From contig JAFCMP010000510.1 in NCBI GenBank assembly GCA_017506865.1, forward strand, positions 558,001 to 622,000: a stretch of DNA of 64,000 nt, written 5' to 3'. Origin of the DNA: Tribonema minus (taxonomy: Eukaryota; Sar; Xanthophyceae; Tribonematales; Tribonemataceae). This document shows, one piece after another, positions 23,830 through 53,500 of the stretch. The notes under the pieces are model-generated. The model did no database searches. It was not told where the DNA came from and saw only the letters and a program-made list of their open reading frames with translations. Position 1 is the stretch's first letter; the number at the start of each line of letters is the position of its first letter. The position numbers and the translations under genes are program-made.

Positions 23830-23838
23830 TTGAAGTTG

Positions 23839-28803: not shown

Positions 28804-28820
28804 GCTCCCCCTTCTTCGAT
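28804..28820 (-). other. Polypurine tract of the LTR element
   Basis: On the minus strand, gaagaagggggagc lies directly against the TGTTACGG start of the 3' LTR. This is the expected position and composition of the plus-strand primer for Ty3/gypsy reverse transcription. Confidence 0.85.
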
Positions 28821-32653: not shown

Positions 32654-32656
32654 GAG

Positions 32657-33960: not shown

Positions 33961-34397
33961 ATCACAACCTCTTCTAGGAGGCGCGCACTGCGTTTGGCAG
34001 TGGGCGGGGAAACAGGGGCTGCGACAACTCTGTCCACGAGGCCCTTGAAGTTGCACAACCTCGATGCCTTGTCGTCTCGCTTGTGCCGCATGGGGATGGC
34101 AACGCTGGAGTCTGGCGTGGGGAAGAACTCCATGGTAGAGTACGACAGGCTACTGCCAAAGCTCCCAAAGAAGTCGCCGCCGATGATGGCAGGCATGGGT
34201 ATGTCGGTCACATAAAACCGATGACGAACGAGGGTCTTCCTGAACCGCAGAGTCATCTGCACCGCGCCGGTGATAGGGATGCGTGTTTTACTGTCTGCAA
34301 GTTCGATGGCGGTGAAGTCACCCTGTCGCAACGGTTGTACGCTACCCTCTGGGAGCCGTCTGCTCTGCTGTATGCTCAGCAGGCTCGCCGTGGCTCC
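33909..34397 (-). pseudogene. Gypsy aspartic protease, C-terminal part (cut by the nested insertion)
   Basis: The minus-strand reading starts TGATASLLSIQQSRRLPEGS, matching the sequence just after the retropepsin catalytic Asp. It continues LRQGDFTAIELAD and PAIIGGDFFGSFGSSLSY, the 'ilG-DfL' strand. The catalytic Asp itself is lost at, or lies on the far side of, the insertion at 34398. The frame ends at 33909 and overlaps the RT frame, which is shifted by +1. The frame change may be a Gag-Pol-type frameshift or a mutation. Confidence 0.82.
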
Positions 34398-34673
34398 TGT
34401 GGTGAGGCGACCCTAGGTGGAGCCGTTGTTGAAGTAGGGTTGTGTAACCGCTTGGTACACGACATGCCTTTTGTGCTCTATACAAGATACCCAACACCAT
34501 GACTTCCTGACAGGACTTCTCTCCACTGCCTTTGGCCGCTGGCTATGCTCTCATTTGATATGGGTTTGCACACAGCACATGGGCATGTGGAACTGAGGTC
34601 TCAGGAGTCGTAAGGTGTGTAGTTTCTAGCGTAGTTCATAAACACAGCAGTGAGGCAACTCATGCTTATGATG
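34398..34673 (+). repeat. Left 276-bp direct repeat
   Basis: Starts tgtggtgaggcgaccctagg and ends aactcatgcttatgatg. It appears identical to 37499-37774. Confidence 0.95.
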
Positions 34674-34979
34674 GCAGATCTCGGCAGTCTTTAGCCAGCC
34701 AGGAGACACGCTGGGAAGGCTTAGCGCAGCAGTACGCGGCGCCAAGCTCCGTTGAGCTCGTGCTGCAGCATCAAGCAGGGGCAGTCGGCGGAGCTTCGGG
34801 ATTTCAACAGCTGGGGGCGTGTGCTAGTTGTGGCGAGCTACAGCGACACTACTGCGCCACCTTCAGTTCAGCAACAGCAGCAGCAACGCTGCTTTGGCGT
34901 GCAGCGACGTGCCTAACCGTAGGTGCACGCCGGCATCGGTTCAACAACAGCACGTGCACACCTTCTTGCTTGCAGCAAA

Positions 34980-36782
34980 ATGGTGTGGGGGGAGGAACGT
35001 GCTGCTATAAGTCGTGAGGAGGCATTGGAAATTCACAACTGGCTTGTCACAGTTGGACGAAATCCATACAGCAGCTGGCAGCGAATGGAGGAAATGAAGG
35101 GATCGCAGATTGAGCCGCAGTTCTGGAGTGTATGCGATGCATTGGAGCACTTCTATACAGACAGCGAGCGCCTAATTGGTGTTCAGCGACGACTCAAAAC
35201 GCGTCTAGCGGAGACAGAAGAAAGGGTCGCTGAGGAAAACCTGAGGGTATTGCAGCTGCAAGATCGTACAGTGAGCAGCCAGGAGGCAGCGGTAGCGGCA
35301 AGGCTGGCGGAGCTACACATGCAGCAGCAGATGCAAGAAAGGCTACAGCAACAGCAGCAGTTACACCAGCAGCAACAGCAACAACTGCAGCAGCAGCTTA
35401 CAGGCGTAAACGAGCGCCTAGAGCAGCAGATGGAGGAGGCGGACGGGCGAGAGGGCCGACTGTGGGCTCGCATCAAGGCGCTAGAGCAGGGGGAAGCGCA
35501 CTTGGAGCAGGAGCTAGCAGAGGGCTCAGCGCGTCGAGGTACGCTGGAGGCGCGAGTGCTGGAGCTGGAGTCGTCTGCAGCAGCTATGCTTGCAGTGGAG
35601 CTGCAGCAGCAGGTTCAGCGTTTGGAAGCGCAGAATGCTGGCCTGCGTGCTGCAGTGCAGGCTGCGTCGCTTACCACTTCATCAGCCAGCACCGTGACAC
35701 CAGCGGCCAGCAGCATCCCAGCACCCGCTCGTCAGCGTGAGCAACAGGGTGCAGCAGCTGACGATTCAGCATTGCTTTCGCAAATGCGGAGGCGGGTGTC
35801 GGAGCTGGAGCAGGATGCTGCTAGCAGCAGAGCGTTTGCGGAAGGTCTGCAGCAGCGGCTTGCTGCAGCTGACGCTCAAAGCGTGCACCTACACATGGTG
35901 TGCGATGCGGGAGCGCGTGCGAGCGCGGCGTTGCGTGAGCAGCTTGCTTGTGCGCAGGCGGCCGCTGCGGCAGCGCGTGTGCCCACAAACACGGGTGCTA
36001 ACGGTGGAGATGCTATCAGCGGTGTTGATATCGCTGCAACATCAGCGCCCACGGCGGCGCTAACATTAGCGCCCATGGCGGCGCTTACATCAGTCATGTG
36101 CGGGGGCAGCGGCGACACTCCCAGCAGCAGCGGCGCATGCAACAGCAGCGACGGCGCGCGCAGCAATAGCAGCCACAGCGATGCTCGCTGCAACGACGCG
36201 CGCGGCGATGCACACGGCAGCGGTGCTAGCGGCGGAAGCGTGTGCGGCAGCGGCGGGCACGGCGGTACTGGCGGCAGCACGCGCGGCGGCAGCGGCAGCA
36301 GCGGCAGCGGCGGCGGCGCGATCGGCAACAGCAGCAGCAGCTGCATGCGCGGTAGCAGCGCTCCGCGCAACAGCGGCACGCCAGCGCTGCACGTTCCGGC
36401 GCACGCGAGAGGACGCGGCATCAGGCGGGCGTACAGTGCGGCGGCCGGCGGCAGTGTCGGGCGGCCGCTCACACGGCGGCAGCAGAAAAGGAGGGAGTAT
36501 TGGGCGGCTTACACGCCTGAGGAGCAGCAGCATCTGCGCGATCGCCAGGCGAGGCGCAAGGTGATGCTCACGCGCTGCGTCAGCAAGGCGGGAGGCAGCG
36601 ATGGCGCGCAGCTGCCGCCAGACTTGGCAGCAGCAGGTGCGCACAGCGGCGCACACTCAAGCGCAGCTGTGGCGCTCCGCAGCAATCAGGCTCCTCATCA
36701 TAGCGCATATTGCGCTGATGTTTGTGAGACACACACAGCAGCAGCTCTTCTCTGTGCCATGTGTCTTACAGATACACCTTGA
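34980..36782 (+). CDS. Coiled-coil, Gln-rich and Gly/Ser-rich protein of unknown function
   Basis: The ATG at 34980 (aaaATGg context) gives about 600 residues; an upstream in-frame ATG at 34923 is also possible. An N-terminal segment of about 70 residues (EEALEIHNWLVTVGRNPYSS ... FWSVCDALEHFY) looks globular. A long coiled coil follows (LKTRLAETEERVAEENLRVL onward) with a Gln-rich block (MQERLQQQQQLHQQQQQQ), then Ala-rich helices. Next comes a Gly/Ser/Asn/Asp/Cys-rich linker at about 36100-36360. A basic segment (LTRRQQKRREYWAAYTPEEQ, DRQARRKVMLTRC) near the C-terminus may bind nucleic acid. I do not recognise the family. It could be a Gag-like product of the nested unit or a captured host gene. 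Confidence 0.6.
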   Translation: MVWGEERAAISREEALEIHNWLVTVGRNPYSSWQRMEEMKGSQIEPQFWSVCDALEHFYTDSERLIGVQRRLKTRLAETEERVAEENLRVLQLQDRTVSSQEAAVAARLAELHMQQQMQERLQQQQQLHQQQQQQLQQQLTGVNERLEQQMEEADGREGRLWARIKALEQGEAHLEQELAEGSARRGTLEARVLELESSAAAMLAVELQQQVQRLEAQNAGLRAAVQAASLTTSSASTVTPAASSIPAPARQREQQGAAADDSALLSQMRRRVSELEQDAASSRAFAEGLQQRLAAADAQSVHLHMVCDAGARASAALREQLACAQAAAAAARVPTNTGANGGDAISGVDIAATSAPTAALTLAPMAALTSVMCGGSGDTPSSSGACNSSDGARSNSSHSDARCNDARGDAHGSGASGGSVCGSGGHGGTGGSTRGGSGSSGSGGGAIGNSSSSCMRGSSAPRNSGTPALHVPAHARGRGIRRAYSAAAGGSVGRPLTRRQQKRREYWAAYTPEEQQHLRDRQARRKVMLTRCVSKAGGSDGAQLPPDLAAAGAHSGAHSSAAVALRSNQAPHHSAYCADVCETHTAAALLCAMCLTDTP

Positions 36783-37498
36783 GTACTACTCGGAGTAGCT
36801 AGGCCTGCTCAGCTCGGTCAGTTACACATGACAGCGCTTGGCATATTGCACGTTAGCAATGACGTGACAGGAGGCGTTTTGCAGGTCTATCTCTGGGCCT
36901 GTACGTTTTAGACACCACACTACTTCGGTATAGGCTCAGCAGTGTAGTGTCTGGGGGCGATGTCGTACAGGTACCGAGACACGTGCATGGCACAAGTGTC
37001 GACAACACCTGGACGCACAAACCCACCCGCCCACCCTAAAGATTGTTTCGGCCACCGCGCACTTGTTTTGCGCGTGTGTTCGACACAAACGCTGGGGGGG
37101 ATTAGTGCGCAGTGCCAACATGTCGGGGGCGTACGTTGAAGTAGAATGGTGGTGTGTTTGCTTGCGTTGATTGCGCAGTGCCAACATGTCGGGGGCGCAT
37201 ATAGCAGCGGAGCAAGTTGCTTGCTCAAACTTGTTTTTGTGCTGCAGCAGTAAGATTGTATTGTTTGCAGCAACGCAGGTACTACTCCGGCCAGACGCGC
37301 TGCAGTCTTTCTGAGACTTGGTGGTAGCGGAGGGTTAGTGGTATATGCCAGACGCCCGCGTTCTCTTCGAGAGTTCGGCGGTAGCGGAGGGCTGCTGTTC
37401 TTGCATTCGTAGAGATACTGAGTGTCTAGCACCTAGGGCACCTCACATGTGTGCATGTCTTTCCACTTGCGGAGCAGAAGAGCCATGCAGGGGGCGTG
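36783..37498. other. Interior of the nested unit, no gene recognised
   Basis: Contains two copies of gcgcagtgccaacatgtcgg (about 37106 and 37171) and paired gtagcggaggg words (37324 and 37382). It also holds a 60-bp segment (36960-37019) that recurs at 37776-37835. No coding sequence is convincing. Confidence 0.55.
36960..37019. repeat. 60-bp repeat, inner copy
   Basis: From atgtcgtacaggtaccgaga to cctggacgcaca, this is identical to 37776-37835, which abuts the right 276-bp repeat and runs into the gypsy protease/Gag text. On the minus strand one frame reads VRPGVVDTCAMHVSRYLYD, protease-like with DTC in place of DTG. Confidence 0.9.
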
Positions 37499-37774
37499 TG
37501 TGGTGAGGCGACCCTAGGTGGAGCCGTTGTTGAAGTAGGGTTGTGTAACCGCTTGGTACACGACATGCCTTTTGTGCTCTATACAAGATACCCAACACCA
37601 TGACTTCCTGACAGGACTTCTCTCCACTGCCTTTGGCCGCTGGCTATGCTCTCATTTGATATGGGTTTGCACACAGCACATGGGCATGTGGAACTGAGGT
37701 CTCAGGAGTCGTAAGGTGTGTAGTTTCTAGCGTAGTTCATAAACACAGCAGTGAGGCAACTCATGCTTATGATG
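37499..37774 (+). repeat. Right 276-bp direct repeat
   Basis: Identical partner of 34398-34673. It is followed directly by the 60-bp repeat copy at 37776-37835. Confidence 0.95.
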
Positions 37775-37822
37775 AATGTCGTACAGGTACCGAGACACGT
37801 GCATGGCACAAGTGTCGACAAC

Positions 37823-38027
37823 ACCTGGACGCACACTCCGTTGTCCAGCATGCACTCCATGTTCAGCTCTTTGATGTCTCGCTGGTGGGGCATGCGTGTG
37901 ATGAGGTTGATGAACCGTTGTGCGCTGGGGCTGCCTGTGGCGTAGGCCACCTTCTCGCCTGGCTGCACAGGCACGTGAGAAAAGCTAAGCGCTGCGAGGT
38001 TCGCAAGGGGCTGTTGTTGAAGTTGAA
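37823..38027 (-). CDS. Gypsy polyprotein segment between methyltransferase and protease
   Basis: The minus-strand reading QQQPLANLAALSFSHVPVQP then GEKVAYATGSPSAQRFINLI and MECMLDNGVCVQVL continues the Gag-methyltransferase ORF after the LINE. It leads into the expected first strands of the aspartic protease ('NGV-VQVL-DTGA'). It is isolated between the LINE (right) and the nested unit (left). One base seems to be missing near the catalytic Asp. Confidence 0.7.
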
Positions 38028-41000
38028 GTTGTATATTATGTCCTGGACCGCATGGGCTGCGCGCACGATAAATCGGGCTTGCAATAACTAAATCTACGGA
38101 GGAGCCGGCGGTTCGGCGCTGGCCGGCGAGGGCCGCGGCACTTGCAACAGTGCGATGCGACGGTAAGCGCTGACGTCGCCATCAGGGGCAATGACTGCGT
38201 TCCAGTTGTCGATCACGACACGTGTGAGCGCGCGCTGTAGCGCGAGGGAGGTGCGGCGGCGCCAGAAGGCAACGCGCTGCGCGAGATTGTAGCTGCCCTG
38301 CGAGCTCTGCTCGGCGAGTGCGTGTAGCAGCGCTTGGGTGTCGCGTGACATAGCGCCGAAGTGGTCAAAGGCTGCGGAAAATAGGGTGTGTGTAGTGGGG
38401 TCCAGGGCCCCTGAGACTACGTATGTGTCTATCTTTTCCTGCGAAGCCGATTCAAGCACGCGCTGCACATCGCGCGCGCCCCCCTGAGCCTGACGGAGGC
38501 GGGAGGGGCATGAGCTGTCACGTATGGTGACGTCTATGCAACAAGCTACTTCAAAGCCGCCGCGCAGTTTAGTGCACCGGCCTGCTGCTACCGCGTCGGC
38601 GCTCGGCTGCACTTTAGGGACTGGAAGGCAGACCTGGTTGCTGCCAAAGACGATGTCCATGAACTTGTTGAACCCGTGGCGCGCCGCGTAGCGGCGGAAG
38701 GGGGCAAGGGTGTCCCGGTCGAGACCGCGGAGGTGGGCCACCTGCTTGAGCAGCTGAAAGAGCGCGTCTGCGAGCAAGTTGTGTCGCGTGACGTTAAGCC
38801 CTTGTGTGCAGCGGCGCAGGTGGGCACCCGAGTCCACTGGTCTATGGCACTTGGGGCACCGCGCCGCAGCGGGGGCGGGGCGCTCCACGCCCAGGTGGCG
38901 CCGCAGCGTCTCGCGGAATTCCGGCGGGGACATGGTCTCCGCTGGGTCAGTGCTCGGCAATTGCGCCAAGAAACCCATGGCCCCCTTAGAGGCGCCGCTG
39001 CGCCACGCCGCGACTGCTTCCAACGCATTTGCTGCTTCAAGCCGACGCAGCTGCGTGGCGGCGAGCGCTGCGTCTAGCACCCGTGATAGCGCCGCTTGAC
39101 GCCGCGGCAGCACGGCGGCCGGCGGGGCCTGGGCAGAGCCTGGCTCGCGCGCCACCGCTGGCGCAGCAGCGCGGCGCGCGCCGGCGCGAGTCCGCATGCC
39201 CGGCCCCGCAGCTCCGCCTGCCCGTTGCAGCAGATCGCGCAGCGCCCGCCATGCGCCGTCGTCCTGGCGCCAGTCCTGGTACCAGACCGTGGGCAGGAGC
39301 AGTGCGAGGGCCGCTGCAGCCTCATCGCTGCCGCTGCGCAGCTGCTGCAGGCAGGTAGCTATCTGGGTGAAGGTGAAGCCATAGCGGGCATGCTCTAGGA
39401 CGCGGCTGCGTGCCGCGACTGGAAATGCCGCCAGTGCCGGCCCCATGCACTCGAGGGAACGTGCAGCAAATGCGGCACATGCACGGGGCGCCGCGCCCAG
39501 CACGCCAAAGCCACCACTCCCCAGCCGCAGATGCACGCGTACCTGCTGATGTGCTGGTAGCGTCACTGGGGCCTCGCCACCCCAGTCGGCGCCGCGTACC
39601 CATGCCACTGCCGCCGCCCACAGAGAGGGCGGCGCCGCCGCCGCCGAAACCGCCGGCGGGCCGCGGCAATCGTCACCCGCCGCCGGCGCGCGCTGGTGGG
39701 CCGGCGGCGTAAGACCCGCCGATGGCTCCTGCGCCAGCGCGGCCACGGCCGCTAGCGTGATGGCGTCGAAGCGCCGTAGCTCCTCGTGCGTGAGGGATGG
39801 CGCTGTATTGCGCGAGACATGCCCTGCGCGGGCGGGGACGGCAAGACGCAGAATGGAGAAGGCAGCCTGCACATCCTCCATCTGCACAAGCTCCGCAACC
39901 AGGCGGTCGGTGCCGGGGGCACGAAGGGTCGCCGCCACTTGCGCGCGCACGAAGCCCTCGGTGCTGACCGGCACCCCCATCAGCGTGATGCCGTCGTCAC
40001 ATACTGGTACGGGGACATTGGCGGCGGCAAAGACGGCGGCGGCGCGCTCGCGGGCGCCGCCTGAGGCCGGCACCACCGCCGCGCATTTCGTGACGTTGAC
40101 CTGAATGTTGAGCTCGCTCAGCGCCTGTTGTATGAAGCAGAACGCGCGGCCAACGTGGCCGAGCACCGGCGCGTCACAGCTGGGCGTCATGATGGTGAGG
40201 TCATCGAGGTAGCCCGGAAGCGCCAGTTGCGGGAACTTGGCGCGGGCAGCCACCATGGTGCCGCGCAGTGCCAGCGCGAACAGCAGCGGCCCCAATGGGT
40301 CGCCCTGCTGCACGCCCTGTTGGGAGAGGATGATGGCGGCGTCGGCGTGCCCATCTAGGCCAAATTGTAGCCAAGGGGCCCGGCCGGGGCCGTAGATGTG
40401 CTCGACGTAGCCGTACAGGCCAGGCAGATGCTCGGCCACCGCGGTGAGGACTGCCGAGCGCGACAGCGCGTTGAAGGCATTACTGCCGTCAATGGCAAGG
40501 AGCACGCCGCCGCACTCATGCGTGAGCTGCGCCATGAGCGCCACTCTCTCTGCGCCCCCCCGCGCGCCGACCCCAAACTGGCCAATTGGTTCCAGCAGCG
40601 CGGAGACGCGGTCCCGGGTGTCCGTGCAGAAGGTGCGGGCGAACAGGCGGCGGATGGTGTCGCCGCACGCGATGGGGCGCGCCTTCTCGCCCACAGCGCT
40701 GAGGCGCGCGGCCGCGTGAAGGCGCCAAAAGGGGGCGGGCAGCGCGGCGGGGGTGGAGTACACCGCGGTACCCAGCCACGCCAGCAGCTCAAGGAGCCAG
40801 TCAACCGTGCGCCCCGACGTGTGCGCCGTGTGCCGGACGCACTGCTGGAGGTGGGAGTTGCGCAGCCCAGAGGGACCGGCGGCCGAGCCAGGGTTGGCGG
40901 CGAGGATGGCCTCGCGTAGCCCGTCCGCCGTGAATGAAGCGCAGTTGAGTGGTGCCGGCGCCGCCAGCGCCGCCGCCGCCACCAAGCTGCGCGCCCGCGA

Positions 41001-41996
41001 TGCCGCGGCATCCAGCTTCGCAGACGCATCGCCAGCTGGGTGTTTAGCCTGCAGTTTATGCAAGGTAGCAGAGTCGCGGGGGGCAGATGTGTCAGCACCC
41101 TCCGCCAGCAGCCGCGCGGCGCGCCCGACGCCGCCCGGCTGCCGCGCCGTCGCCGCCGCGCGTTCCCGCACTGCCGCCGCCGCCTCCGTCATAGACCTAG
41201 CGCGGCGCGTGCACGCACGGGCGGCGCCGCGGCGGCAGAAGGCCAGCGCTGTGCGCGTGAGCAGGTCCAGGTCGCCTGCCACGAAGGCCGCAAAACGGTG
41301 CGCCCGCGGCAGGGAGCCGTCGGGTACAAGCAGCAGGCACGGCAGCAGATGCAGCAGCTTGCACCATGCACCGGCTGTGGCGGACGCCTGTGCCGCTGCC
41401 TCAACCCCGTGTGCCTGCGCTACCGCCGTCTGCGCTTCCCGGAGGCCCGCCAGCGTGGCCGTCAAGGCGGCTGTGAAGTCCGAGCGGTGCTCCAGGCGAA
41501 TGCGGCGGCCGACCACCAGTTGCTGCTGCAGAACATAGTCAAAGGAGAGGTCGTCAAGCGCTGCGCGCGCGGGCGAGAGCGGCGCCAGCGTCCAGAGCGG
41601 AAGCGCGCTGCGCCATGTTGGCCCTGCCGCAGCCACAGCGGCAGCTGCGCGGGCGCCGGGGCCGCGCGCGCCGCCGCTGGCTGTAGAGAGGGGGAGGATG
41701 GGGGGCAGAGGCGCGACGCGGGGCCCGTGTGGCCGCTGCGTTGCGGCCGCCCCCCGGGACTTGTACAGGTGGTCGCGCTGGTGCAATTTCGTGCGCACGC
41801 ACCCTGGCTCGCCGCACGAGGCGCATGCGCAGAGTAGCAGCTCGGGTTCCACGGCGTAGTAGGTGCCCGCGCCGGCTCGGTGGAGAGTCAAACACTCATC
41901 GTCGACCGCCTGCATACGCGCGAGAAAGTCGGCAGGCACATTCGGATGCTCGCGGCGCTGGTGATCCGCCAGCGTCGTGGCGATGCGGCGCGCCAG
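38025..41996 (-). mobile_element. LINE with RT and restriction-like endonuclease, nested in the gypsy element
   Basis: The boundaries follow from the truncated copy (shared 3' end), a sharp rise in GC content between 38.1 and 42.0 kb, and TTGAAGTTG at both edges (38017-38031 as TTGAAGTTGAAGTTG; 41997-42005). Removing it restores gypsy text on both sides (GGELQQPQLQ before, QQPLANLAAL after). Length is about 3.97 kb. I cannot tell whether the 5' end is complete. There is no poly(A) tail; the 3' end is a short TTCAAC-type repeat, as known for several endonuclease-type non-LTR elements. Confidence 0.93.
38094..41996 (-). CDS. LINE polyprotein: reverse transcriptase plus C-terminal restriction-like endonuclease
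   Basis: About 1300 residues, read in frame with the upstream gypsy Gag-methyltransferase; residue numbers here are from 44888. A Cys-rich knuckle CACASCGEPGC lies near 1019-1030. RT spans about 1330-1620: EKARPIACGDTIRRLFARTF, LLAIDGSNAFNALSR (catalytic Asp), GVQQGDPLGPLLFALAL, and GYLDDLTIM (YLDD in place of the common YADD). A C-terminal zinc knuckle CPKCHRPVDSGAHLRRC lies at 2011-2027, RHNLLADAL at 2035, then CCIDVTIRD (D2119) and a Lys/Tyr pair in QEKIDTY. This order is that of restriction-like endonuclease LINEs (R2/CRE/NeSL/Utopia-like). I found no APE endonuclease. It replicates by nicking the target and priming cDNA there. Its own start codon is unclear. Confidence 0.92.
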   Translation of the reverse strand: MARRIATTLADHQRREHPNVPADFLARMQAVDDECLTLHRAGAGTYYAVEPELLLCACASCGEPGCVRTKLHQRDHLYKSRGAAATQRPHGPRVAPLPPILPLSTASGGARGPGARAAAAVAAAGPTWRSALPLWTLAPLSPARAALDDLSFDYVLQQQLVVGRRIRLEHRSDFTAALTATLAGLREAQTAVAQAHGVEAAAQASATAGAWCKLLHLLPCLLLVPDGSLPRAHRFAAFVAGDLDLLTRTALAFCRRGAARACTRRARSMTEAAAAVRERAAATARQPGGVGRAARLLAEGADTSAPRDSATLHKLQAKHPAGDASAKLDAAASRARSLVAAAALAAPAPLNCASFTADGLREAILAANPGSAAGPSGLRNSHLQQCVRHTAHTSGRTVDWLLELLAWLGTAVYSTPAALPAPFWRLHAAARLSAVGEKARPIACGDTIRRLFARTFCTDTRDRVSALLEPIGQFGVGARGGAERVALMAQLTHECGGVLLAIDGSNAFNALSRSAVLTAVAEHLPGLYGYVEHIYGPGRAPWLQFGLDGHADAAIILSQQGVQQGDPLGPLLFALALRGTMVAARAKFPQLALPGYLDDLTIMTPSCDAPVLGHVGRAFCFIQQALSELNIQVNVTKCAAVVPASGGARERAAAVFAAANVPVPVCDDGITLMGVPVSTEGFVRAQVAATLRAPGTDRLVAELVQMEDVQAAFSILRLAVPARAGHVSRNTAPSLTHEELRRFDAITLAAVAALAQEPSAGLTPPAHQRAPAAGDDCRGPPAVSAAAAPPSLWAAAVAWVRGADWGGEAPVTLPAHQQVRVHLRLGSGGFGVLGAAPRACAAFAARSLECMGPALAAFPVAARSRVLEHARYGFTFTQIATCLQQLRSGSDEAAAALALLLPTVWYQDWRQDDGAWRALRDLLQRAGGAAGPGMRTRAGARRAAAPAVAREPGSAQAPPAAVLPRRQAALSRVLDAALAATQLRRLEAANALEAVAAWRSGASKGAMGFLAQLPSTDPAETMSPPEFRETLRRHLGVERPAPAAARCPKCHRPVDSGAHLRRCTQGLNVTRHNLLADALFQLLKQVAHLRGLDRDTLAPFRRYAARHGFNKFMDIVFGSNQVCLPVPKVQPSADAVAAGRCTKLRGGFEVACCIDVTIRDSSCPSRLRQAQGGARDVQRVLESASQEKIDTYVVSGALDPTTHTLFSAAFDHFGAMSRDTQALLHALAEQSSQGSYNLAQRVAFWRRRTSLALQRALTRVVIDNWNAVIAPDGDVSAYRRIALLQVPRPSPASAEPPAPP

Positions 41997-44906
41997 TTGA
42001 AGTTGGGGTTGTTGGAGTTCTCCCCCTTCTTCTGAGCAGTCCATGGGCTCAGTGTCAGAGTCAGCGTCTGCAGAGACTGGGTCAGGTGCTGCATCTCTGA
42101 GAAAGCTGGGCGCGACCGCGTCTGTGTCGCTCTCCTGCTCACCAGTGTTGTCTGGCACTAAGTCGACTGCAGACAGCTTGGCACGTGCTGTGCTTTCGCT
42201 GTCGCGGGAGATGCGTTGGACAGCGTTGATGCAGCGTTGCATGAGCGTGTGTTGCGTCTCTCGTGAGGCCGTGCCGTCTGTGTGTTCAAGCGCGGCAGTG
42301 CTGTCAGCGAGCCACTCAGGTGTGGGCGAGTTGCGATCCAATGACATTGCAAAGCCATCATCAGAGGGGCTGGACTCTTGCATGTCAAAGATGCCACTGC
42401 ACCATGCAGCAAGCAAGAATGCGTGGGCGACATCAGGCATGACAAGGTTGGCCAGCCAAAGCTGCAACTGCTCTTGGCTGCCAGTTGGCAAGTCAGACCT
42501 GTATGTCAGCATGAGCGCCATGTCGCGGGGGGTGACAGTCATGGCATCACGTACATCACATGCGTCATCGAGGGATGGGATGTAGTGAGCAGGGTTCACA
42601 GGAGGCAAGCCAGGCCAGCGACGCGTGGGGCTGCCAAACAGTCCATCAAGGTCATGCACGCCTTTGGAGGAACGCACGCGAGGGCGCAAGAAGCAACCGC
42701 GAACACGGCGTGGAACCTTCAGAACGTGTCTCATGGAAAGTGGAATTCCATTATTGCACATAGCATTGAGGACTGCGCAGAGGCGCTGGAGCGCGGCCTT
42801 GACACCAAAGCGGTTGCGCACAATGAGAACAAACGCGCGCGTACGCCTGCAGCAGGTGTCGAGCTCCGATGCCTTGATGACTGTCTCAAGTACTGCGTAC
42901 CCGTTGGCCAACAGGTGGGCCTTCCCCCTACCCCATGCTTGCGACTTGAGCATCTGCGGGACGTTCTCTGACAACACCAACTCAAGCTCTGCCTCCGTAA
43001 CCACCTTGGCCAGCTTGTATGTCAGCTCCGCCGCCTCTCCCTCCACTCCCTCCCCGTTTGCAAAATCTGTGCAAGGGGTAGAGGACGTAGTGAGGTGAGG
43101 GCGCAGCTTGCGCAGTTGGTGGATGATGCGGGGATCATCAAATGACATGCACTGGGGTGCGGCAGACGTAGGGTGTGTCTCCCTATACGCGTCACACGTC
43201 TTCGCGCAGTTGTCAACAGCGAGCACTGTGTTGACATGCAAGCCAAGTTTACTTGCCTGCGCAAACCCTTCCTCCCAACCGCCTATCCCGCAGCACAGCG
43301 ACGCGTGCGTGAGATGGCGCTCCATCGCCTGCTCCCTAGCACGCTCACTCATCTGAGGCGCGGCAGGGGTCGCAGCAGCAGGGGGAGGGGGAACAGCCAC
43401 GTGAGGGCGTGCATGGAAGGGTGCCGGCGGTGCAGTCATGCCAGCGTCAGTAGGCGCAGATGCAGCAGAGGCATGCGCAGCATGCGGTATCACCGGTGCC
43501 GCAGGGGCACTCGCACCAGGCGTAGATGCCGATGCAGCGCGCGCAGCGTGCAATGTCGCAGGTGCAGCAGGGGTACTTGCAACAGGCGTGGGTGCAGACG
43601 CATTGGCAGGCTGAGCTACAGCAGAAGACATGACGCCCAGCGCAGCAAGCATTGCGGTCGCGCAGCGGGGTGCGTGAACGCTTAAGCGGCTGTCGAGCAC
43701 TGACTCACTGTGTTTGGTGGCCATGGCGGCGGCAATGGCTGCCTGGATGTCGGCCGTCCACGGCTGCACTGCGGCAGCGGCCGCAGTGGGGGCTGGGGCT
43801 GGTGCCGGCGCCGCGGCAGCAGGTGCCTGGTACACGGTGGGCCAGGAGGGTGCGGGGCCGGCACCGTGCATGGCAGCCAGCTGCGGGACCACTTGCGGCG
43901 GCATGGCATAGATGGGCGCTCCCTGCATCGCGAAGACAGGCGCGGCAGAGGCAGGCGGCGCAAGGTCGCGGCTGCGACTGCGCGACGGGGTGCGGCGGTT
44001 GTCCCGACACTCAGAGCTAGCGTGATGATTGGCATACCGTTCGCCAGTGGTAACCATCACACCACAGCGCTTACATGTCCAGTTGTTGAACGGCTTGTAG
44101 GTCAGGCCAGGCTTAGGGTTAGAGGCCGGCTGACCGTCCTGCGCTGCTTTGCGCTTGCCGGAATTGAGAGGCGTGGAAGGCGGCGCAGCAGCAGGGGCGC
44201 CCTTGCCATGGAGCACCGCAAGCTGCGCAAACGCCAACTCCGTGTTATCCGCCTCTAGTGCAGACCGGGCTGCTTGGACACACTCTTGCCGCTTAGCCTC
44301 CTTGGACGCCTTGCGCCGGGGAAGGCTTGCAGCATCAGGCGCCTGCGTAGGGGTGCCTTTAGGGGGGGTGACAGTGGCGACAAAAGCGGGAGTGTCGTGA
44401 GCGCCAACGCTGTCTGGGAGCGGGATCCCATGCTCTTGCAAGTGAGTGCGCCAGACGGCGGCGGCGTGGTTCACGCTGACTGTGAGGGGGTCCTGCCAGA
44501 AGTTGTCACATCTGTCCAGCTGAACCTTAACAAAGTCAGGCATGCAGCTGTAAAACTTCTCACGGCGAGTGGCCTCGTTAGAGCCCCCCTCTACACGCCG
44601 GCCATAAGTGTCAAGCCTGTTGGCAAAGTCACGCGGGGACTCAGCATGCCAGTCGTATACGAGGCGAGACCACTCATCGCGCGCAGTATGGCGTGCAGTC
44701 CAGTCATCATATTTGGTTGTGAGGGCAGCTACGCGCTGGTCATAGGTGAGGGTGTCCCAGCCCGTGGTAACCCCGTCAATGGTGGCAGAGAGCCCAGACA
44801 CCTCAGCACGCTTGTCTGCAGGGATGGCAGCATCAAGAGCAACAGACCAATACTCCCTCTTCACGCCCCACTGCCCACATGCGTTCACGTGAGGAAAGCA
44901 CAGATG
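41997..44906 (-). CDS. Gypsy Gag C-terminus, zinc finger and C5-cytosine DNA methyltransferase
   Basis: Numbering from 44888. Residues 1-155 are Gag-like (ARHTARDEWSRLVYDW ... KFYSCMPDFVKVQLDRC). A zinc-finger-like CKRCGVMVTTGERYANHHAS lies at 272-291. A long Ala/Pro linker (300-510) follows. The methyltransferase spans about 527-828: motif I LCCGIGGWEEGF (531-542), the acidic AVDN (557-560), motif IV TPCTDFANGEG with catalytic Cys606, motif VI ENV (641-643), motif VIII RRTRAFVLIV (681-690), and IX/X-like TPRDMALMLTYRSD and WLANLVMPDVAHAFL. The PC and ENV catalytic motifs are kept, so the fold should be active for cytosine-5 methylation of DNA. An acidic linker (895-960) leads to the LINE junction. 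There is no ATG at the 5' end. The upstream Gag frame overlaps (44833-44906) with a +1 shift. Confidence 0.88.
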
Positions 44907-45897
44907 TCAGCTGCAGCGGTTCAAGGCATAATGTGGAGGGGAGTTTGGCGATGATGTTCAGCTGTGCAACGCGCTCCCTGTCAGGATCGCGGGAGGGTGC
45001 GTCGCGAGGAGCGTCGTGGGCAGGCAAGGGGTTAGCAATACCTGCGCGAGCGTTGCGCTTGGCGGCGATGGCGTTTACGACCTCTTCAGCGGTAGCGCCA
45101 CCGTTGAGGAGGTTTAGGGCGTGAGTAGCTAGCTCGCGTAGGATGACCAGCTGAGCGCTGCTGGCCTCGCGGGGTGCCCTGTAAGAGATCAGCGCAGCGT
45201 CGAACTCTGACTTGTCGGCGGAGAGAGCAGTGAGCTGCTCGCGGATATCGGCGCGCTCAGCGTCAGTGGCGGCCTTGACAAGAGACTTCTGAGCGCGTTG
45301 GATGTCGGCGTCCACGCACATCAGAGCAACCTTGAGCCGGTTAACGGCGTCAGAGGCTTGGCGCGACTCCTCTGCGAGGGAGGTGTGCTCAGCGCGCAAT
45401 GACACAAATAATTCTTTGACCGCCGCCGGAGCGTCTGTCGGGGGGTCAGGGATGAGAGCTATGGCCTTGGATGCGCGAACAAGCTCCCTGACGGTGGTGT
45501 CCTGTGCGCGACCAGGAGCGGGAGGAGTGCTAGAAAGTGCGTCTTGGCTGCGGCTCACCGGGTTTTGCGCGGCGCGCTCGCTGCGTCCATCACCCTCCGA
45601 GGCGGAGTTGTCCGCGCCAGAGCGTGCACGGGGACGGCCAGCGGCTTCCTCCGCCTGCTTGGCAGCAGCTTCAGCAGCAGCAGCGGCAGTGGACGAACGC
45701 GGAGTGGTTGCAGGGGCTGCGGCTCTGGCGGCAGCGGCACGCTTGCCATTGCCCCTGCGCTCAGCTCCCTGGTTCCCAGCCGCGTTACCACTCTCATTGT
45801 TTGCCATCTGCTGAGACGAGAAAGTAGGGAGAGGGTGAGCTCCAAGACTTTGGTGCATGTAGTCAGTGGTGGTTTGTATGCTCATGCGTGTGGTCAT
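44833..45897 (-). CDS. gag: Gypsy Gag N-terminal ORF
   Basis: 354 codons from ATG 45897; a second Met (MANNESGNAAGN) about 30 codons in is also possible. The N-terminal third is Ala/Arg/Ser-rich and low complexity. Residues about 140-300 form predicted helices with coiled-coil character (VKELFVSLRAEHTSLAEESR, REQLTALSADKSEFDAALIS). The conserved Gag text breaks off after RVAQLNIIAKLPSTLC and resumes in the +1 frame as VNACGQWGVKREYWSVALD. The last ~20 codons (SSRERMWAVGREE) are therefore probably out-of-frame text, and Gag continues into the methyltransferase ORF by frameshifting, splicing or, before mutation, directly. Confidence 0.75.
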   Translation of the reverse strand: MTTRMSIQTTTDYMHQSLGAHPLPTFSSQQMANNESGNAAGNQGAERRGNGKRAAAARAAAPATTPRSSTAAAAAEAAAKQAEEAAGRPRARSGADNSASEGDGRSERAAQNPVSRSQDALSSTPPAPGRAQDTTVRELVRASKAIALIPDPPTDAPAAVKELFVSLRAEHTSLAEESRQASDAVNRLKVALMCVDADIQRAQKSLVKAATDAERADIREQLTALSADKSEFDAALISYRAPREASSAQLVILRELATHALNLLNGGATAEEVVNAIAAKRNARAGIANPLPAHDAPRDAPSRDPDRERVAQLNIIAKLPSTLCLEPLQLTSVLSSRERMWAVGREEGVLVCCS

Positions 45898-46651
45898 GAA
45901 CCAACAGGAGCAGCGGGCACAGCGTCACATGTGCACTTTGCTGCCAGTAAACCACTCCTCCCCCCATTGCGATATGATGCTGGGGTCGCTGCGAGAGGAA
46001 TGGTGCATGTGAAGTCCACGGCCCTACCACCAAAGCCGTGGCGGCGTCATGACATGCAACACGGGTGGCCACCTGTACGCCTCGCATCTTGAGCGTGGAG
46101 AGGGCAGTGCCAGCGTCCGACGGCAGCTGGCGCGGCAGACAGTCTCTGTCAGGGCTGCCCTACTGACTACATCACGTCAACATTCAAGGCTCGATGGTCG
46201 ATCATGGCAATGTGCGAGCACCTGGGTGCTGTCGGGACACACATGTGCGCATGCCTGCTTGAGCAACACAGGAGAGCAGCCGCGGGAGACTGCACGAGCC
46301 AGTGAATGCCGGCTGCTTCGCGCAAACACACACACACATATAAACTAGTGCCACTTCGCTTCGAAGGCGGAGCGCCCCACTTGAGGTTAGCTGGCCACGG
46401 CAGGCGGCCACGATGTGTACGGGTTAATTGTCGTTAGCTGGCCACGAGAGGCGGCCACGATGTGTACGTTCAAGCGGTGCTACACTACGCTGTGCTACAC
46501 TACGCTGTGCTACCCTGGAAGCCTACGGAGGGCGGTCGAGCTTAGCGTGGCTCCGCCATTGAGGCAGACGACCGTGTACAACGCTGTGAACCGTTGCGAG
46601 GCCTCGCAGCTAAGGCGGAGGACACGCACAAGCGCCTGCTTCGAGTGCCAC
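45898..46651 (-). other. Gypsy 5' leader with primer-binding-site candidate
   Basis: Directly after the 5' LTR (minus strand) comes GTGGCACTCGAAGC. TGGCACTCGAAGC begins with the TGG expected of a tRNA primer site, one base from the LTR, but I cannot assign the tRNA. The leader also holds a 48-bp direct repeat (ggcggccacgatgtgtacg at about 46404 and 46452) and a short tandem gctacactacgctgt near 46476-46512. No ORF is supported. Confidence 0.5.
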
Positions 46652-46950
46652 TGTTTTATGAGAGCTCAGCGGTGTGCTACAGCATGCTAACTTACCTTGT
46701 TGTCGGTGGAGGCCTGTGGAGGTGGGGGTGTCCTCAGCTATAGCTGTCTTGTGCCGAGACCGGAGGTAGAGAAAGAAGTGAGTGTGCAGCTGCCTTTTTT
46801 GGCAAGTTGCAATTGGATCCTCGGCACAATCCAGGGGATCTGACTCAGGAGTAACATGTATGAAACCCTGCATCATCACCCGACATACCAGGGGTATGCC
46901 CTAATAATGGCATCATCAGACACGGATACCACAATGTACAATCCGTAACA
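46652..46950 (-). repeat. 5' LTR
   Basis: Matches the 3' LTR at 28505-28803 over 299 bp. The flanking AATG (46951-46954) equals 28501-28504. It would contain the element's promoter and polyadenylation signals. I cannot point to a TATA box with confidence. Confidence 0.95.
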
Positions 46951-47575
46951 AATGCTGCACTTTGCTAATGCCATGCTGCAAACTTAAACGCAGTCACAAT
47001 AATTGGGGCACGGTTACATTGCAGGGATAATGCTGCACATCTTGCACGGGTTATGCTGCAAACGTCAACGCAGTCACAGTAATTAGGGCACTTGTACATT
47101 GCAGGGATAATGCTGAACAATCTTGCAAAGGCCATGCTGCAAACTTCAACGCAGTCACTCATGCTGTGGCTTTACACATTGCAGGGCTAATGCTGCACAT
47201 CTCGCAAAGACTGTGCTGAAAACTTCAACACGGCTACAATAGGTGGAACACTTGCACATTGCAGGGCTAATGCTGCACATCTTGCAAAGGCTGTGCTGAA
47301 GCTTCAACACAGTTACAATAGTTGCGACAATTTCACATTGAAGGGCTAATGCTGCACATCTTGCAAAGGCTGTGCTGAAGCTTCAACACAGTTACAATAG
47401 TTGCGACAATTTCACATTGAAGGGCTAATGCTGCGCTTCTCGCAAAGGTTGTGCTGAAACTTCAACACAGTTACAATAGCTGGGACACTTTCATTGCAGG
47501 GATAATGCTGCACATCTCACAAACCTTCAACACAGTCACAACATGTATTGACGTTTATCCCTTGCAGGTCTAGTG
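46951..47575 (+). repeat. 80-bp tandem array, about eight units, with acceptor-like ends
   Basis: aatgctgcacatcttgca starts recur at 46951, 47029, 47109, 47189, 47269, 47348, 47428 and 47504 (spacing 76-80). Each unit carries aacttcaacacagt-acaat and ends cacattgcag/ggctaatgctg, which resembles a 3' splice site. The last, divergent unit (cccttgcag/gtctagtgctgg, about 47560) runs directly into the first recognised exon of the next gene. Confidence 0.9.
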
Positions 47576-47581
47576 CTGGTA

Positions 47582-50500
47582 TTATACAAGAGCTGCTGTT
47601 GACGCTGCACGCGCCATTGCTTTGTCATCGCTCTCAGGCACCATGTTGAGCGACATCGTGGGCAAAAACATGGCAGCTCGTGCCAGCAAGCACCTGTACG
47701 GGAGAGCCAAGACGCACTTCAGCACTCTTGTTCCCAACTGTAGTCCTGAGAATGTGGAGATTGGCATGAAAGAAGAGGCGAGGATTAAGGCGCTGGCGGT
47801 ACCATCGCGTCCGGTTGGCGAGACCTTCGACTTTGAAGAGTCCACAATCGAAAGCGAGGTAAGCTCAATTCGGCAACACCTCATTTTGCATCTGCATGCC
47901 ATAGTGCACCTTCCCAACAAACTCAGCATTGCACATTGAACCGGTAACACATCTCCAGTGCTAGCAGCTTGAATCCAGCGTGCAGCTACCACATAGCACT
48001 TGCTGGTATGTTTACTACATCTGTACTCAAAGTTTGTACCTGACCATACACCTGTATCGCTCCTGTACTGTGCAGGTCTCCTGGGTGAGAACAACCAAGT
48101 TTTCATCAAAGCTGATCCTCACAAACGTGGTCGACCCTGCCACGGGCAAGAACAAGGCCCTCTACTGCACCCCCCGTCCCACACCATCATCACAGCAGGA
48201 GATCATCTTCAACTACACCCGCTGGGCAGACATCACCTCATACGGGCTAGTGCCTGGCAAGACCGTCCTCAACGACGGCGGCGTACTTGTCGACACCAAC
48301 GGTCAACACTTTGTGGTGCGTTATGGAGATGGAGCTCGGCGCACCCTTTCTGCTCGGGCGGCTGTACCGCCGCCCCCGCCTCCACCTCTAGCGCCGGCCC
48401 CAGCACCGCTACCACCACCGCCACCAGCTCCTTCTGCGCCCAGATACAACCTCGTCACTCAGATGCCGGACCCAACGGAGTTCACCGACCACTTCTCCGG
48501 GTACAGGATCTTCTTTGCCAAAGATGATCGCTGGCACATCGGCGACATCAAGAGCTGCACCATCAGTACAGGGTGGACTCCTGCTTTCCAGGTTGAGGTG
48601 TCGTTCAACATGAAGCAGATAGCCTCAACCACTGCGATGGCTTTGCTGGAGGAGCCCGAAGTGTTCAGCTTTAGAGTCCTGCACAGCCAATACCTCGGCA
48701 GCGGTGAGCTCAAACACCGCGCCAGCGGCAATTGGTTCCTAAAGGAGGTACTGTCAAGGTGAGAACTTCCCCTGAACCTTTGTGCACACTTGAAATTTCT
48801 GCCTCTGGGCCTGTCGGAAAGTGCTTTCAGAGGCTGACACTAAATGGGGTCGGTGCGACACTAGCTAGATGTTGTAAGGTGCAAATAATCATGGTCCAGC
48901 ATCAAAAGAGTAGGTGAGATCAGTGTAAGAGAGGTTCCAGCGTCCCCCAGCATTAGCAGAGGCCATACTAAGGCTTAGAGCACAAAGTTGAACTTGTGTT
49001 GAAACTGAAATGGGCCTGTCAAGAAGAGAGTTCATAAAGTGTAAATAATTGTGACTCATGATCGAAAGTGTGGGTGGGGTCAGGCTAAGAGAGGTTCAAT
49101 CTATCCCTACATGAGCAGTCACCATACTAAGCCTTGCAGCACAAACTTGAACTTTGGCACACACTTGAAGTTCCTGAGGCTGGGCCTGTCGGAAAAAGTA
49201 TTTCTCAGAGGCTGACCCTAAATGGGGTTGGTACGACGCTCGCTAGATTTTTGTAACCTGCAAATAAATAGGGCTGCTGATCAGAAGTGTAGGTGAGATC
49301 AGTGTAAGAGACCTTCGGGCGTCCCCAGCATTAGCAGAGGCCATACTAAGCTTTAGAGCACAAAGTTGAACTTGTGTTGCAATTGAAGTGGGCCTGTTGA
49401 GAGAAGAGTTCATAAAGTGTAAATAATTGTGGCTCATGATCGAAAGTGTGGGTGAGGTCAGGCTAAATGAGGTTCAATCTATCCCTACATGAGCAGTCGC
49501 CATACTAAGCCTTACAGCACACACTTGAACTTTGGCACACAGTTAAAGTTCCTGAAGCTGGGCCTGTCGGAAAAAGTGTTTCTCAGAGGCTGACCCTAAA
49601 TGGGGCTGGTACGACGCTCGCTAGATTTTCGTAACTTGCAGATAAATAGGGCTGCTGATCAGAAGTGTAGGTGAGATCAGTGTGAGAGAGCTTCAAGCGT
49701 CCCCAGCATTAGCAGAGGCCATACTAAGCCTTAGAGCACAAAGTTGAACTTGTGTTGCAATTGAAGTGGGCCTGTCGAGAGAAGAGTTCATAAAGTGTAA
49801 ATAATTGTGGCTCATGATCGAAAGTGTGGGTGAGGTCAGGCTAAATGAGGTTCAATCCATCCCTACATGAGCAGTCGCCATACTAAGCCTTACAGCACAC
49901 ACTTGAACTTTGGCACACAGTTAAAGTTCCTGAAGCTGGGCCTGTCGGAAAAAGTGTTTCTCAGAGGCTGACCCTAAATGGGGCTGGTACGACGCTCGCT
50001 AGATTTTCGTAACTTGCAGATAAATAGGGCTGCTGATCAGAAGTGTAGGTGAGATCAGTGTGAGAGAGCTTCAAGCGTCCCCAGCATTAGCAGAGGCCAT
50101 ACTAAGCCTTAGAGCACAAAGTTGAACTTGTGTTGCAATTGAAGTGGGCCTGTCGAGAGAAGAGTTCATAAAGTGTAAATAATTGTGGCTCATGATCGAA
50201 AGTGTGGGTGAGGTCAGGCTATGGCTGCTGATCAGAAGTGTAGGTGAGATCAGTGTAAGAGAGGTTCAATCTATCCCTACATCAGCAGTCACCATACTCA
50301 GCCTTACAGCACACACTTGAACTTGTGTTAGAACTTGAAGTTCCTGATGCTGGGCCTGTCGAGAAAAGGGTTCATAAAGTGTAAATAATTGTGGCTCATG
50401 ATCAAAAGTGTAGCTCAGAGAGGTTACAGCTTTCCCTACATGAGAGCTCGCCATACTGATTAATGACACAAAGTTGAGCTTGTGCTTAAACTTGATGTCA

Positions 50501-53500
50501 CCGAGGCTGGGCCTGTCGAGAAAAGTATTCATAAACTGCAAATTAATTAGGGCTCAAGATCGAAAGTGTAGGTGAGGTCAGGCTAAGTAAGGTATTTCCC
50601 TACATCAGCAGTTATCATAATCAACCTTACAGCACACACTTGACGTTATACACCACAACTGCAAAGTCTTGATACCTACTCCATCAATTGTCACTTCCAC
50701 ATCTTGGCAGGCATGCGCCTCCAGCTGCCCCCGCCGCGCCAGCCGTCACTCCAGCCGCCCCTCCAGCCACCCCTCCAGCCGCGCCAGCCGCCACGTCAGC
50801 CGCCCCTCCAGCCACCCCTCCAGCCGCGCCAGCCGCCACGCCAGCCGCCCCTCCACCCATCCCTCCAGCCGCCCCCCCTGCGCCTCCAGCCGTACCTACA
50901 GGGGTGGAAGAGTATGGGCTGTCACACATTCTCTCCGAGGCTCGTCCCGGCCAGGGCGTCACCTCCCTTGAGGATGCTTGGCGCACATTCCTGCTGCAGC
51001 GCGCCGTCATCATGTTCAACGGAGTCCTCATCTTCCACGACTACACCACGGATCCAAGCAGAGTCAAGAAAACCGGCAAGCGCATTGACACCATCAACTA
51101 CAAGAAGGACGGCATCATGAAGCTGAGGCGGTACAACAGTAAAGGGCAGAACGGGGAGGAGGTGCAGGAGGAGAGCGTGGGGGACGAGGAGGGTGGGACA
51201 GACGAGGAGGATGTGGAGGACGAGGGGGACAGCGAGGACAGCGACGATAGCGATGGTGAGGACGAGGGGGATCAGGAGAGCGGGGACGGTGCGGAGAGCG
51301 AGGGGGAGGAGGACTGGGCGGAGGCTGGGCGCGGTGACATCGGAGGTGGATACGTCAGCATAGCACTGGGCGCACGCACAGGCGGCATTATGCAGGCCAT
51401 CGTGGACTCGGTGACCGCCCGTCAGCTGCTGCCCCCCTCCGGCCTCTGCCTCTACAGCAACGCGGTGCTCGACACGGAGTACGGGCAACTAGCCTGGCCG
51501 TCGTTGTCATGGGATGTAGTCAACAGCTGCCGCCTCATGAGATCCCCAGAACTCACCATCGGCAACGCATCAGACATCCCCGTCAACAACTGCATCAAGA
51601 TCCTCAGCTTAGCGGCCGTCATCGGCCGCGCTCCGACGTGCACATCTGGCTGCACACTGCTCACACCCGCTGAGGTTCAACTCGTGTTGAAGCGGTGCAA
51701 GGGCGCCGCGCGCGTTGACGACCCCGAGCACACCCGTACCCCTAAGCCTCCCATCTCCCTCAGGGGCGCACTGCCAGCGTCACTGGCGCATCTCGTCTGG
51801 GACTACGATCTCAAGACTCGCCGTGAGGTGGTGGACAGCTGGACGCTGGTGAGAGCGGAGATAGCATGCAAGGCGGCGGACGTCGGCGTACGAGAGGAGC
51901 AGTATACCGCCACCAGCATCAACAACATCAACTGCGCTGCCTGTTACCTGTCCCACACCGCCAAATACTTCAACACCACGGCTGAGGCAGAAGAGCACCT
52001 TTCCGGCTACTTCAGCGTGCTGCACAAGCAGCAGGTGAGCTACCAACTGTTCTGGCGCAACCAACTGGCGGCAGAGCACTCCGCCAACATCACCAGCAAC
52101 ATCAAGCTGCGCAAGGGGCGCCTCGTCGACACGGCCACCTGGGAGTACGTGAACGATCGCATGATCGGCGTGATGGTGGAGGGGACGTGGGACCCTTTTC
52201 AGCGCGCCATCGACAAGTGGCTCAAGGACAACGGCAAGTCCTGGGCGGATATAGACGGCCTCGGCAACATCCTCGTCAAGGTCGGCGAGAGCGACAACTT
52301 CGGCACCAACAGGGGCAAGAAGCCCGATGCCTCCCACCTCACCGGAGTTGGCTGGGTGCAGGAGCTGGCAGCGCACCTGCGGGAAACAGTCAAGGTCAAC
52401 CTCTACGACTGCTGCAACTTGGAGCTGCTCACCCACCTTCTTGCCTACATGGAGAAGCCGGTGCGCCAACAGGACGTCTGGCATAACAGAGCATCGCTCG
52501 TCTTCGCCAAGATCATCAACGGAGAGATACGCCTTTTCCTGGTGAGTGATGTAGTGCCTGATAGGCTGGATGTGTTTGACTGCTGTGGGCGCCATTGAGT
52601 TTTGTTATGCAGAGTACATGCGATGAGGTCATGCATGCTCCGCGTGTTTGCTCTAGCATATGTACTTCAATAGTTCATAGAACTTGCATCAAACTGCTTT
52701 CAAGTGTGCTAAGTAGGTACGGCATTTCAGGCAAAGTCCTCCACCACTCCATACTCCCAACTTCAACTCATCTGTTAATGTTGTAACGGTTCAAGGTTGA
52801 CACATTAGTGATGTGTACTGAGCACAAAGCAAAGTATGTTGCAGTAGTTGCTGAATGTGCAACGCCATGGCTTTGCTGTCTGAGCTCGTGATGTACTGAT
52901 GTCTGCAAGGCTTTGCATGGCGATGTGCACTGATGCTATGATTGTTGCATGTGTGCCTCTCCCGAACCATTTACTTGTTGTACAAAACGCGTGCAACTAA
53001 ATAAGGCCAAGCATGATCTGAGCATTATACATACCGTTTGCTATAGCACAAGTACTTCAACAGTGCAAAGAACTTGCGTTACACTGCGTTTCATGTATGC
53101 TAGGTAGGTATGGCATTTGACGTAGAGTGCTCAACCGTGACATCAATGACTGTACACTACAAGCTACTGCTACAAGCTACTTATTTGACATGCCTGAAAC
53201 TTTGCGAGAGTGACACATCAGTAATTTGTACTGAGGACAAGGCATAGTATGCCGCAGCAGCTGCTGAATGTGCAGCGCTATGGCTTTGTTGTCTGAGCTT
53301 GTTGTATACATATTGTGTCTGCAAGGCGTTTGCGTCACCGTATATACTGATGAATGCTACTGTCACATGTGTCCCTCTCCCAGACCATCGACTCGCCCGC
53401 CAACAAGAAGTCCATGGGGAAGGGCAAAGGGAGGGCCGGCAACCTCAACGACCCCCTCCCCACTTCCATCCCACTGCCGAAGGAGCTGACTCGCATGTTC

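Follow-up and report, generated by a model that had tools for sequence, protein, structure and literature searches.

A Ty3/gypsy retrotransposon lineage of Tribonema minus with a C5-cytosine DNA methyltransferase between Gag and protease

The window analyzed here, a 64,000-nucleotide stretch of the Tribonema minus assembly GCA_017506865.1 (contig JAFCMP010000510.1, positions 558,001 to 622,000), contains a copy of a Ty3/gypsy LTR retrotransposon whose coding part includes a C5-cytosine DNA methyltransferase (DNMT) domain and in which two further elements are nested (Table 1). Sequence comparison shows that a Ty3/gypsy lineage took in a DNMT upstream of its protease and kept the catalytic motifs while diverging into at least seven families; where Gag was seen, the domain follows the Gag zinc finger and precedes the protease. 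The principle of DNMT capture by retrotransposons, which a sequence-only reading of the window had given as known, is already published (PMC5890265, available text) and rarely reported; the placement between Gag and protease and the apparent non-DNMT3 class of the enzyme differ from the published gypsy case.

That reading had proposed a gypsy element with the methyltransferase between Gag and protease, and this was borne out by the PF00145 match, the LTRs, the pol domains, and the other copies. The element was also said to be a full LTR element with polypurine tract and target duplication, and these were recovered: the LTRs are 299 bp long, start with TG, end with CA and differ at three positions, and CATT is found on both sides. 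Two features by which Ty3/gypsy elements are recognized are present, i.e., the pol order protease (PR), reverse transcriptase (RT), RNase H (RH) and integrase (INT), and TG...CA LTRs with a short target duplication. The Pfam search on the two pol frames returned RNase H (E 4.7e-23), Integrase_H2C2 (4.3e-18) and rve (3.7e-8) besides the RT. A tRNA scan of the window and 24 loci found no tRNA gene for the primer site. The C-terminal tail after the integrase has, here and in two other loci (L041 and L043), a weak sub-threshold match to the Tudor-like model PF21743 (E 0.03-0.17), and is maybe a chromatin reader. The element adjoins the first of two tandem arrays (46951-47535 and 48773-50643, periods ~79 bp and ~378 bp).

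Table 1. Features of the gypsy copy and its nested insertions, in window coordinates
Feature	Position	Strand	Basis or remark
Whole element (family A), two nested insertions inside	28505-46950	-	LTR pair, target duplication, Pfam pol domains, 16 other loci without the two insertions
5' LTR, TG...CA	46652-46950	-	99.0% identity to 3' LTR; target duplication CATT just before
Putative primer binding site TGGCACTCGAAGCAGG	46635-46650	-	adjoins 5' LTR, starts TGG
Gag, first part, 363-aa frame	44833-45924	-	single frame in other copies
Gag zinc finger CX2C...H...C	44007-44075	-	sequence reading
C5-cytosine methyltransferase domain	42267-43328	-	Pfam (PF00145 stretch 42807-43307), motifs
Nested 5'-truncated LINE fragment with RT	38032-41994	-	11-bp flanking repeat AGTTGAAGTTG
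Protease start, up to active site LDNG	37836-38031	-	profile and reading
Nested split-repeat element within protease active site	34398-37835		4-bp repeat CTCC; repeats 34398-34673/37499-37774 and 36960-37019/37776-37835
Protease remainder and linker	33962-34397	-	reading; out of RT frame in window copy
Reverse transcriptase frame	32660-33961	-	RVT_1 E 3.6e-23
RNase H, integrase (H2C2, rve), C-terminal tail	29003-32656	-	Pfam
Polypurine tract GAAGAAGGGGGAGC	28804-28817	-	directly before 3' LTR
3' LTR	28505-28803	-	LTR pair comparison; target duplication CATT just after

The profile check suggested for the methyltransferase was significant: within the 969-aa frame at 41998-44906, PF00145 matches residues 534-700 (E 1.3e-14, 54.8 bits with a cut-off of 22), and the dcm model TIGR00675 also matches (E 2.6e-12, under its curated cut-off). 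The motifs read earlier from the letters were located at 43263-43304 (I), 43062-43082 (IV, with the catalytic Cys), 42954-42968 (VI, ENV) and 42819-42848 (VIII), along with IX-like (42501-42542) and X-like (42423-42452) stretches named by eye against phage enzymes; the motif names are presumptive. We sorted the DNMT-like sequences of the genome into alpha (the window type), beta and gamma. In an alignment of eight alpha/beta DNMTs (A2, made up of L006 and of seven sequences whose families were seen to be gypsy), the catalytic Cys, ENV, both Arg of the motif VIII RxR and the motif-I glycines are invariant in 8/8. Within family A, TPC is present in nine of the ten copies read, the tenth being the open-frame copy C117, where Leu replaces the Pro of motif IV to give TLC (an eleventh copy, L012, was missed by the search pattern), and ENV and RxR in 9/11, the other two again missed by the pattern. 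In family be1, Ser replaces the Pro before the catalytic Cys. The target-recognition part is short, motif VIII and the SPT motif being ~60 aa apart.

Comparison with solved structures suggests that the captured enzyme belongs to a non-DNMT3 lineage, unlike in the published gypsy case. The alpha/beta profile matched DNMT2 best (6fdf, 3.4e-12), then 3qv2 (2.5e-8), 3g7u (3.3e-8), HhaI (1.8e-7) and the DNMT1-named chains (plant DNMT1/ZMET2, 1.7e-5), and DNMT3 is absent among the 38 solved sequences matched at E<=0.01; the gamma profile matched DNMT2 and DNMT1 alike. The window domain alone had no solved relative at E 0.1. Its AlphaFold model is fair in the core and poor past residue 190 (mean pLDDT 60), and Foldseek groups it with MET1, HaeIII, DNMT1, DNMT2 and HhaI alike (best E 2.6e-10, TM-scores 0.34-0.40 by query length). 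Taken at the level of a predicted structure, this confirms the fold and not the class, since the model's alignment was built from phage enzymes. Viral or bacterial near relatives of the alpha DNMT were confirmed neither in IMG/VR, scanned with the window protein and with A4, nor in prokaryote genomes scanned with A4, both by a few short patterns that miss distant kin, and a single weak phage match has 22% identity. The gamma query (A3) matches 43 IMG/VR loci at 21-39% identity, 12 of which entered the tree and 10 the fold alignment.

The window copy itself is a dead element: it has frame changes, a LINE is nested after the DNMT, the split-repeat element interrupts the protease active site, and RT and RNase H are separated by a stop codon. 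The Gag frame changes near 44833-44906, protease and RT lie in different frames, and the in-frame stop is at 32657-32659. Of the Gag-DNMT-protease layout that had been claimed, the order stands, in one frame, in other copies, whereas in the window Gag is frame-split and the protease is split by the second insertion. The nested LINE has an RT (RVT_1 E 2.7e-8) whose best solved-structure match is R2 (weak, E 6.5e-4); it is also found at window positions 23830-24906 and at ~100% identity over 3963 bp in at least 36 loci including the window (best 36 of 515 candidates), and it is very young. Some of these loci adjoin one another. The split-repeat element shows A-ORF-B-A-B direct repeats, TG...CA ends and a 619-aa ORF on the plus strand, in which only weak Pfam matches and no RT were found. 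We take it to resemble a non-autonomous DIRS/LTR hybrid, the DIRS type name being presumptive, and L022 contains, twice, a ~80% relative of part of it. Both insertion sites are uninterrupted in all 16 other loci fetched, with overlaps of 4 bp and ~11 bp.

The ORF carrying the DNMT in the window reaches 38094 and counts 2270 aa, because the LINE inserted there. Thus, the placement of the DNMT in a Gag-proximal ORF holds for the frame, while the window ORF has its length only through the LINE. A LINE that had captured the DNMT and encoded a genuine DNMT-RT protein would also present a single unbroken ORF, and a similar one occurs in C218 (L033/L037), a second gypsy DNMT copy with a LINE nested in frame between DNMT and protease (13-bp repeat GTTGCTTTGTACG, 3370-aa frame). 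However, no LINE occupies the site in the 16 other family-A loci, where the 11-bp duplication is resolved, and C34 and C543, sisters of the C218 element, pass from the DNMT straight to gypsy PR-RT-INT. We therefore regard the 2270-aa ORF as a nesting artefact and reject both it and the 3370-aa frame as DNMT-LINE proteins, and likewise the idea that LINEs took a DNMT from gypsy elements, since these comparisons point to nested insertions. On the sequences compared, capture by a LINE is refuted for both loci, and we regard it as extremely improbable. An OTU-like part of the C218 LINE was a by-eye impression with no Pfam match and was dropped. Nested insertions can mimic DNMT-LINE fusions, and a gene caller would report a false one at C218.

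Other copies of the same family were searched for in the 158-Mb assembly (554 contigs). A DNA search with partial gag and DNMT gave 25 rows among the best candidates, of which 13 loci including the window are 98-100% identical over the full query, and the remainder comprises one 97% insertion-split row, two rows of 83% identity, a composite row, a row truncated at the end of its contig, and short pieces. The protein search gave 17 family-A loci at >=95% (18 rows), and in six of these, corresponding to about four insertions, the frame stays open for 3129 aa or more. Two pairs may each be one insertion assembled twice: C386 has the same 5' flank as C311, and C545 matches C352 at 99.8% over 9.2 kb. 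In the last two (L014, L015) the 5' end enters a long TGC triplet array in place of the LTR. The other copies encode Gag, zinc finger, DNMT, PR, RT, RH and INT in one frame, so that copies with the same order, for which a search had been suggested from the window alone, do occur; among the gag and DNMT matches listed, none joins gag to the remainder without the DNMT (C392 is cut by the contig end). A 4-bp target duplication is present in 5/5 copies with both outer flanks (window, C21, C514, C47, C117), and a sixth LTR pair comes from C290, which adjoins another copy. LTR-pair mismatches are three in the window, two in C21, one in C47 and zero in C514, C290 and C117, i.e., three of six pairs are identical. 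Based on the order in other copies, the open frames, the LTR pairs and the target duplications, family A has been recently mobile, with the DNMT as a stable part and not a late insert in one copy.

Merging four DNMT-domain searches gave ~280 DNMT-like loci in 158 Mb, fragments and low-identity rows counted (132 alpha, 62 beta, 87 gamma); rows entered were 115/115, 117/117, 63/120 and 69/121, and those left out are 33-52% identical and assumed to be covered by the other lists. A PF00145 search of the genome found 378 candidates, at least 123 of them in scored rows. We could see which type of RT accompanies the DNMT in eight families (A, B, C, D, E, be1, be2 and ga1; for C by similarity to the A pol and by reading rather than by Pfam). 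In all seven alpha/beta families examined (A; B, L041; C, L053/L054; D, L042; E, L043; be1, L035; be2, L036), a gypsy protease, RT, RNase H and integrase come after the DNMT; the order DNMT-PR-RT was read in 6/7 loci, the seventh (L053) beginning past the DNMT, and the protease is confirmed by a profile match to retropepsins (E 3.2e-6). Pairwise comparison links the Gag cores of A, B and D (E 2e-6 to 2e-12); that of C is linked to A (6e-5, by profile 1.7e-6), and its pairwise comparison with B and with D gave nothing useful. The CX2C...H...C finger is common to A, B, C and D, the families whose stretch before the DNMT was read. In ga1 (L034), also a gypsy element, the DNMT follows a protease-like end that was located by reading and has no Pfam match; the PF00145 match of ga1 covers nearly the full profile and its chromodomain match is sub-threshold (24.5 bits, cut-off 25.1).

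In the DNMT tree, which includes no named DNMT classes and thus no named DNMT3 sequence, alpha groups with beta (100/99), the gamma sequences make up a second clade (100/99), and these clades join at 92/89 apart from phage enzymes. In the RT-RH-INT tree, the lone gamma row is remote from alpha and beta, and its branch is very long and was flagged by the program. Both trees recover ((B,E),D) and (be1,be2); C is placed with B, D and E by its DNMT (92/89) versus with beta by its RT (94/96). Since the distant gypsy lineage has its DNMT after the protease-like part, the data suggest two captures, one by the alpha/beta lineage and another, independent one by gamma, with a single older capture or domain exchange between lineages as a possible alternative. 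Three free-standing DNMT frames (L001, L002, L003; C223, C181), which by eye we take to be like giant-virus genes, are possibly endogenous viral stretches; the neighbor of L001 is dNMP-kinase-like. By eye, L004 (C523:358815) was presumed to be a DNMT2-like host gene, and the host row so taken falls elsewhere in the DNMT tree, with a long branch and 44% coverage. Canonical DNMT1/3/5 were not recognized in the small number of rows read, and genes with introns give weak matches. It would be a far-reaching and, in our view, unlikely reading that retrotransposons are the main DNMT source of this host, with two independent non-DNMT3 captures at two polyprotein sites, ~280 loci and any 5mC written largely by elements instead of host DNMT1/3/5.

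Nei-Gojobori dN/dS values for the DNMT are 0.15 (B-E), 0.17 (B-D), 0.20 (be1-be2) and 0.30 (A-B, with dS 2.0 near saturation), A-be1 being saturated; for RT-RH-INT they are 0.074 (B-E) and 0.13 (A-be1, dS 3.8), other pairs being saturated. Both domains are thus under purifying selection, and the DNMT is less constrained than RT-RH-INT in the B-E pair. Among nine copies (the window and eight of the 16 other loci), transitions at CpG exceed other C/G transitions (56/713 versus 87/2179, odds ratio 2.05, P 9e-5), as would be expected if element CpGs were methylated, by the element's enzyme or the host's. CpG observed/expected is 0.84-0.85 in the coding part versus 0.72 and 0.73 in the window flanks, and 0.43 in the single LTR measured (299 bp). 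CpG depletion was therefore rejected as a sign of self-methylation, and heavy long-term self-methylation is not evident.

Carriers of DNMTs have been described in the available text of De Mendoza et al. 2018, where Symbiodinium has LINE and DIRS carriers and Klebsormidium a gypsy element that bears a DNMT3 (PMC5890265), and Copia and DIRS carriers of DNMT3 followed in 2025 (PMC12344493, available text). The parts available of PMC9998398 and PMC9246332 name no further gypsy carriers, and a title and abstract search, with subscription papers and preprints outside its scope, found no report of a non-DNMT3 gypsy carrier. As described in the available text (PMC5890265), KnitGypsy-Dnmt3 of Klebsormidium nitens is likewise a gypsy with a C5 methyltransferase in its coding region under purifying selection; however, its enzyme is of DNMT3 class, lies in the Pol ORF and accompanies a DIRS-like repeat arrangement, whereas the Tribonema element has simple LTRs, its DNMT between the Gag zinc finger and protease, and no DNMT3 among its 38 structure matches. 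SymbioLINE-Dnmt, compared by description only, is similar in its many copies and in a DNMT outside the named classes upstream of the RT, but it is a LINE with the DNMT in the ORF before the RT ORF, while ours is an LTR element (PMC5890265). SymbioDIRS-Dnmt3 also joins DNMT and RT in one polyprotein, but is a DIRS element with tyrosine recombinase and DNMT3, unlike the rve-type integrase and 4-bp target duplications found here (PMC5890265).

As the best reading, which we hold with about even confidence, the captured DNMT is made with Gag-Pol and methylates the element's own cDNA or new copy. The enzyme would be made as part of the Gag-Pol polyprotein, enter the particle together with Gag, be freed by the protease and then methylate DNA of its own element, either the double-stranded cDNA or the newly integrated copy. 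The new copy would reach the nucleus already marked like host DNA, and would escape defences against unmarked DNA, or the mark would keep it silent in a tolerated and heritable way until conditions favor expression. Packaging in the virion is plausible, since other copies encode a single Gag-DNMT-PR-RT-RH-INT frame. Methylation of self DNA is ranked first because two DIRS-borne DNMTs methylate CG de novo in yeast, the authors of that work suggesting cDNA methylation (PMC5890265, available text), and because the enzyme would be made with Gag. The PF00145 and dcm matches, the invariant Cys, ENV and RxR, the one-frame copies with long open frames, the low dN/dS, the agreement of the two trees, the near-identical LTR pairs and the CpG transition excess are all in line with it. 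Against it, coding CpGs are not depleted, the CpG excess fits an element or a host enzyme equally, the DNMT is under weaker constraint than RT-RH-INT, the best solved match is DNMT2, an RNA methylase, and an open-frame copy, C117, has lost the motif IV Pro; moreover, no methylation was obtained in yeast with the published gypsy and LINE enzymes, a result that the authors called inconclusive (PMC5890265, available text). The published SymbioLINE-Dnmt is CpG-depleted (PMC5890265, available text).

The DNMT2 match also raises the reading that the enzyme methylates RNA, either the element's genomic RNA or the primer tRNA in the particle, aiding stability, packaging or priming. The margin of 6fdf over HhaI and plant DNMT1/ZMET2, the location of a Gag-side enzyme with RNA and the short target-recognition part agree with this, as does its having been raised by the 2018 authors for LINE enzymes (PMC5890265, available text). 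However, the DNMT2 match is limited to the common catalytic core, the fold search ranks the five reference enzymes alike (in a model aligned from phage enzymes), and CpG transitions are in excess; we consider an RNA target rather unlikely. Action in trans on host chromatin or rival copies, as counter-defence or to silence competitors and with self DNA not the main target, was proposed by the same authors for Symbiodinium (PMC5890265, available text), and the ~280 DNMT-like loci could affect the whole methylome; no feature links the enzyme to host sites, the Tudor-like tail being sub-threshold, and we consider this rather unlikely as well. Finally, an enzyme that restrains its own element and controls copy number, an idea also present in that paper (PMC5890265, available text), would account for purifying selection without obvious gain, but the copies with identical LTRs point to recent spread, and this seems very unlikely.

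If the DNMT acts on the element's own DNA, transposons would write the silencing mark themselves. The results suggest that DNMT capture by gypsy elements is not limited to DNMT3 but includes a further enzyme lineage. The question of self-marking becomes testable in a genome that has two lineages of gypsy DNMTs, copies whose LTRs are identical, and sister copies that are broken, and the family allows asking if transposons themselves can lay down the chemical marks by which they are normally silenced.
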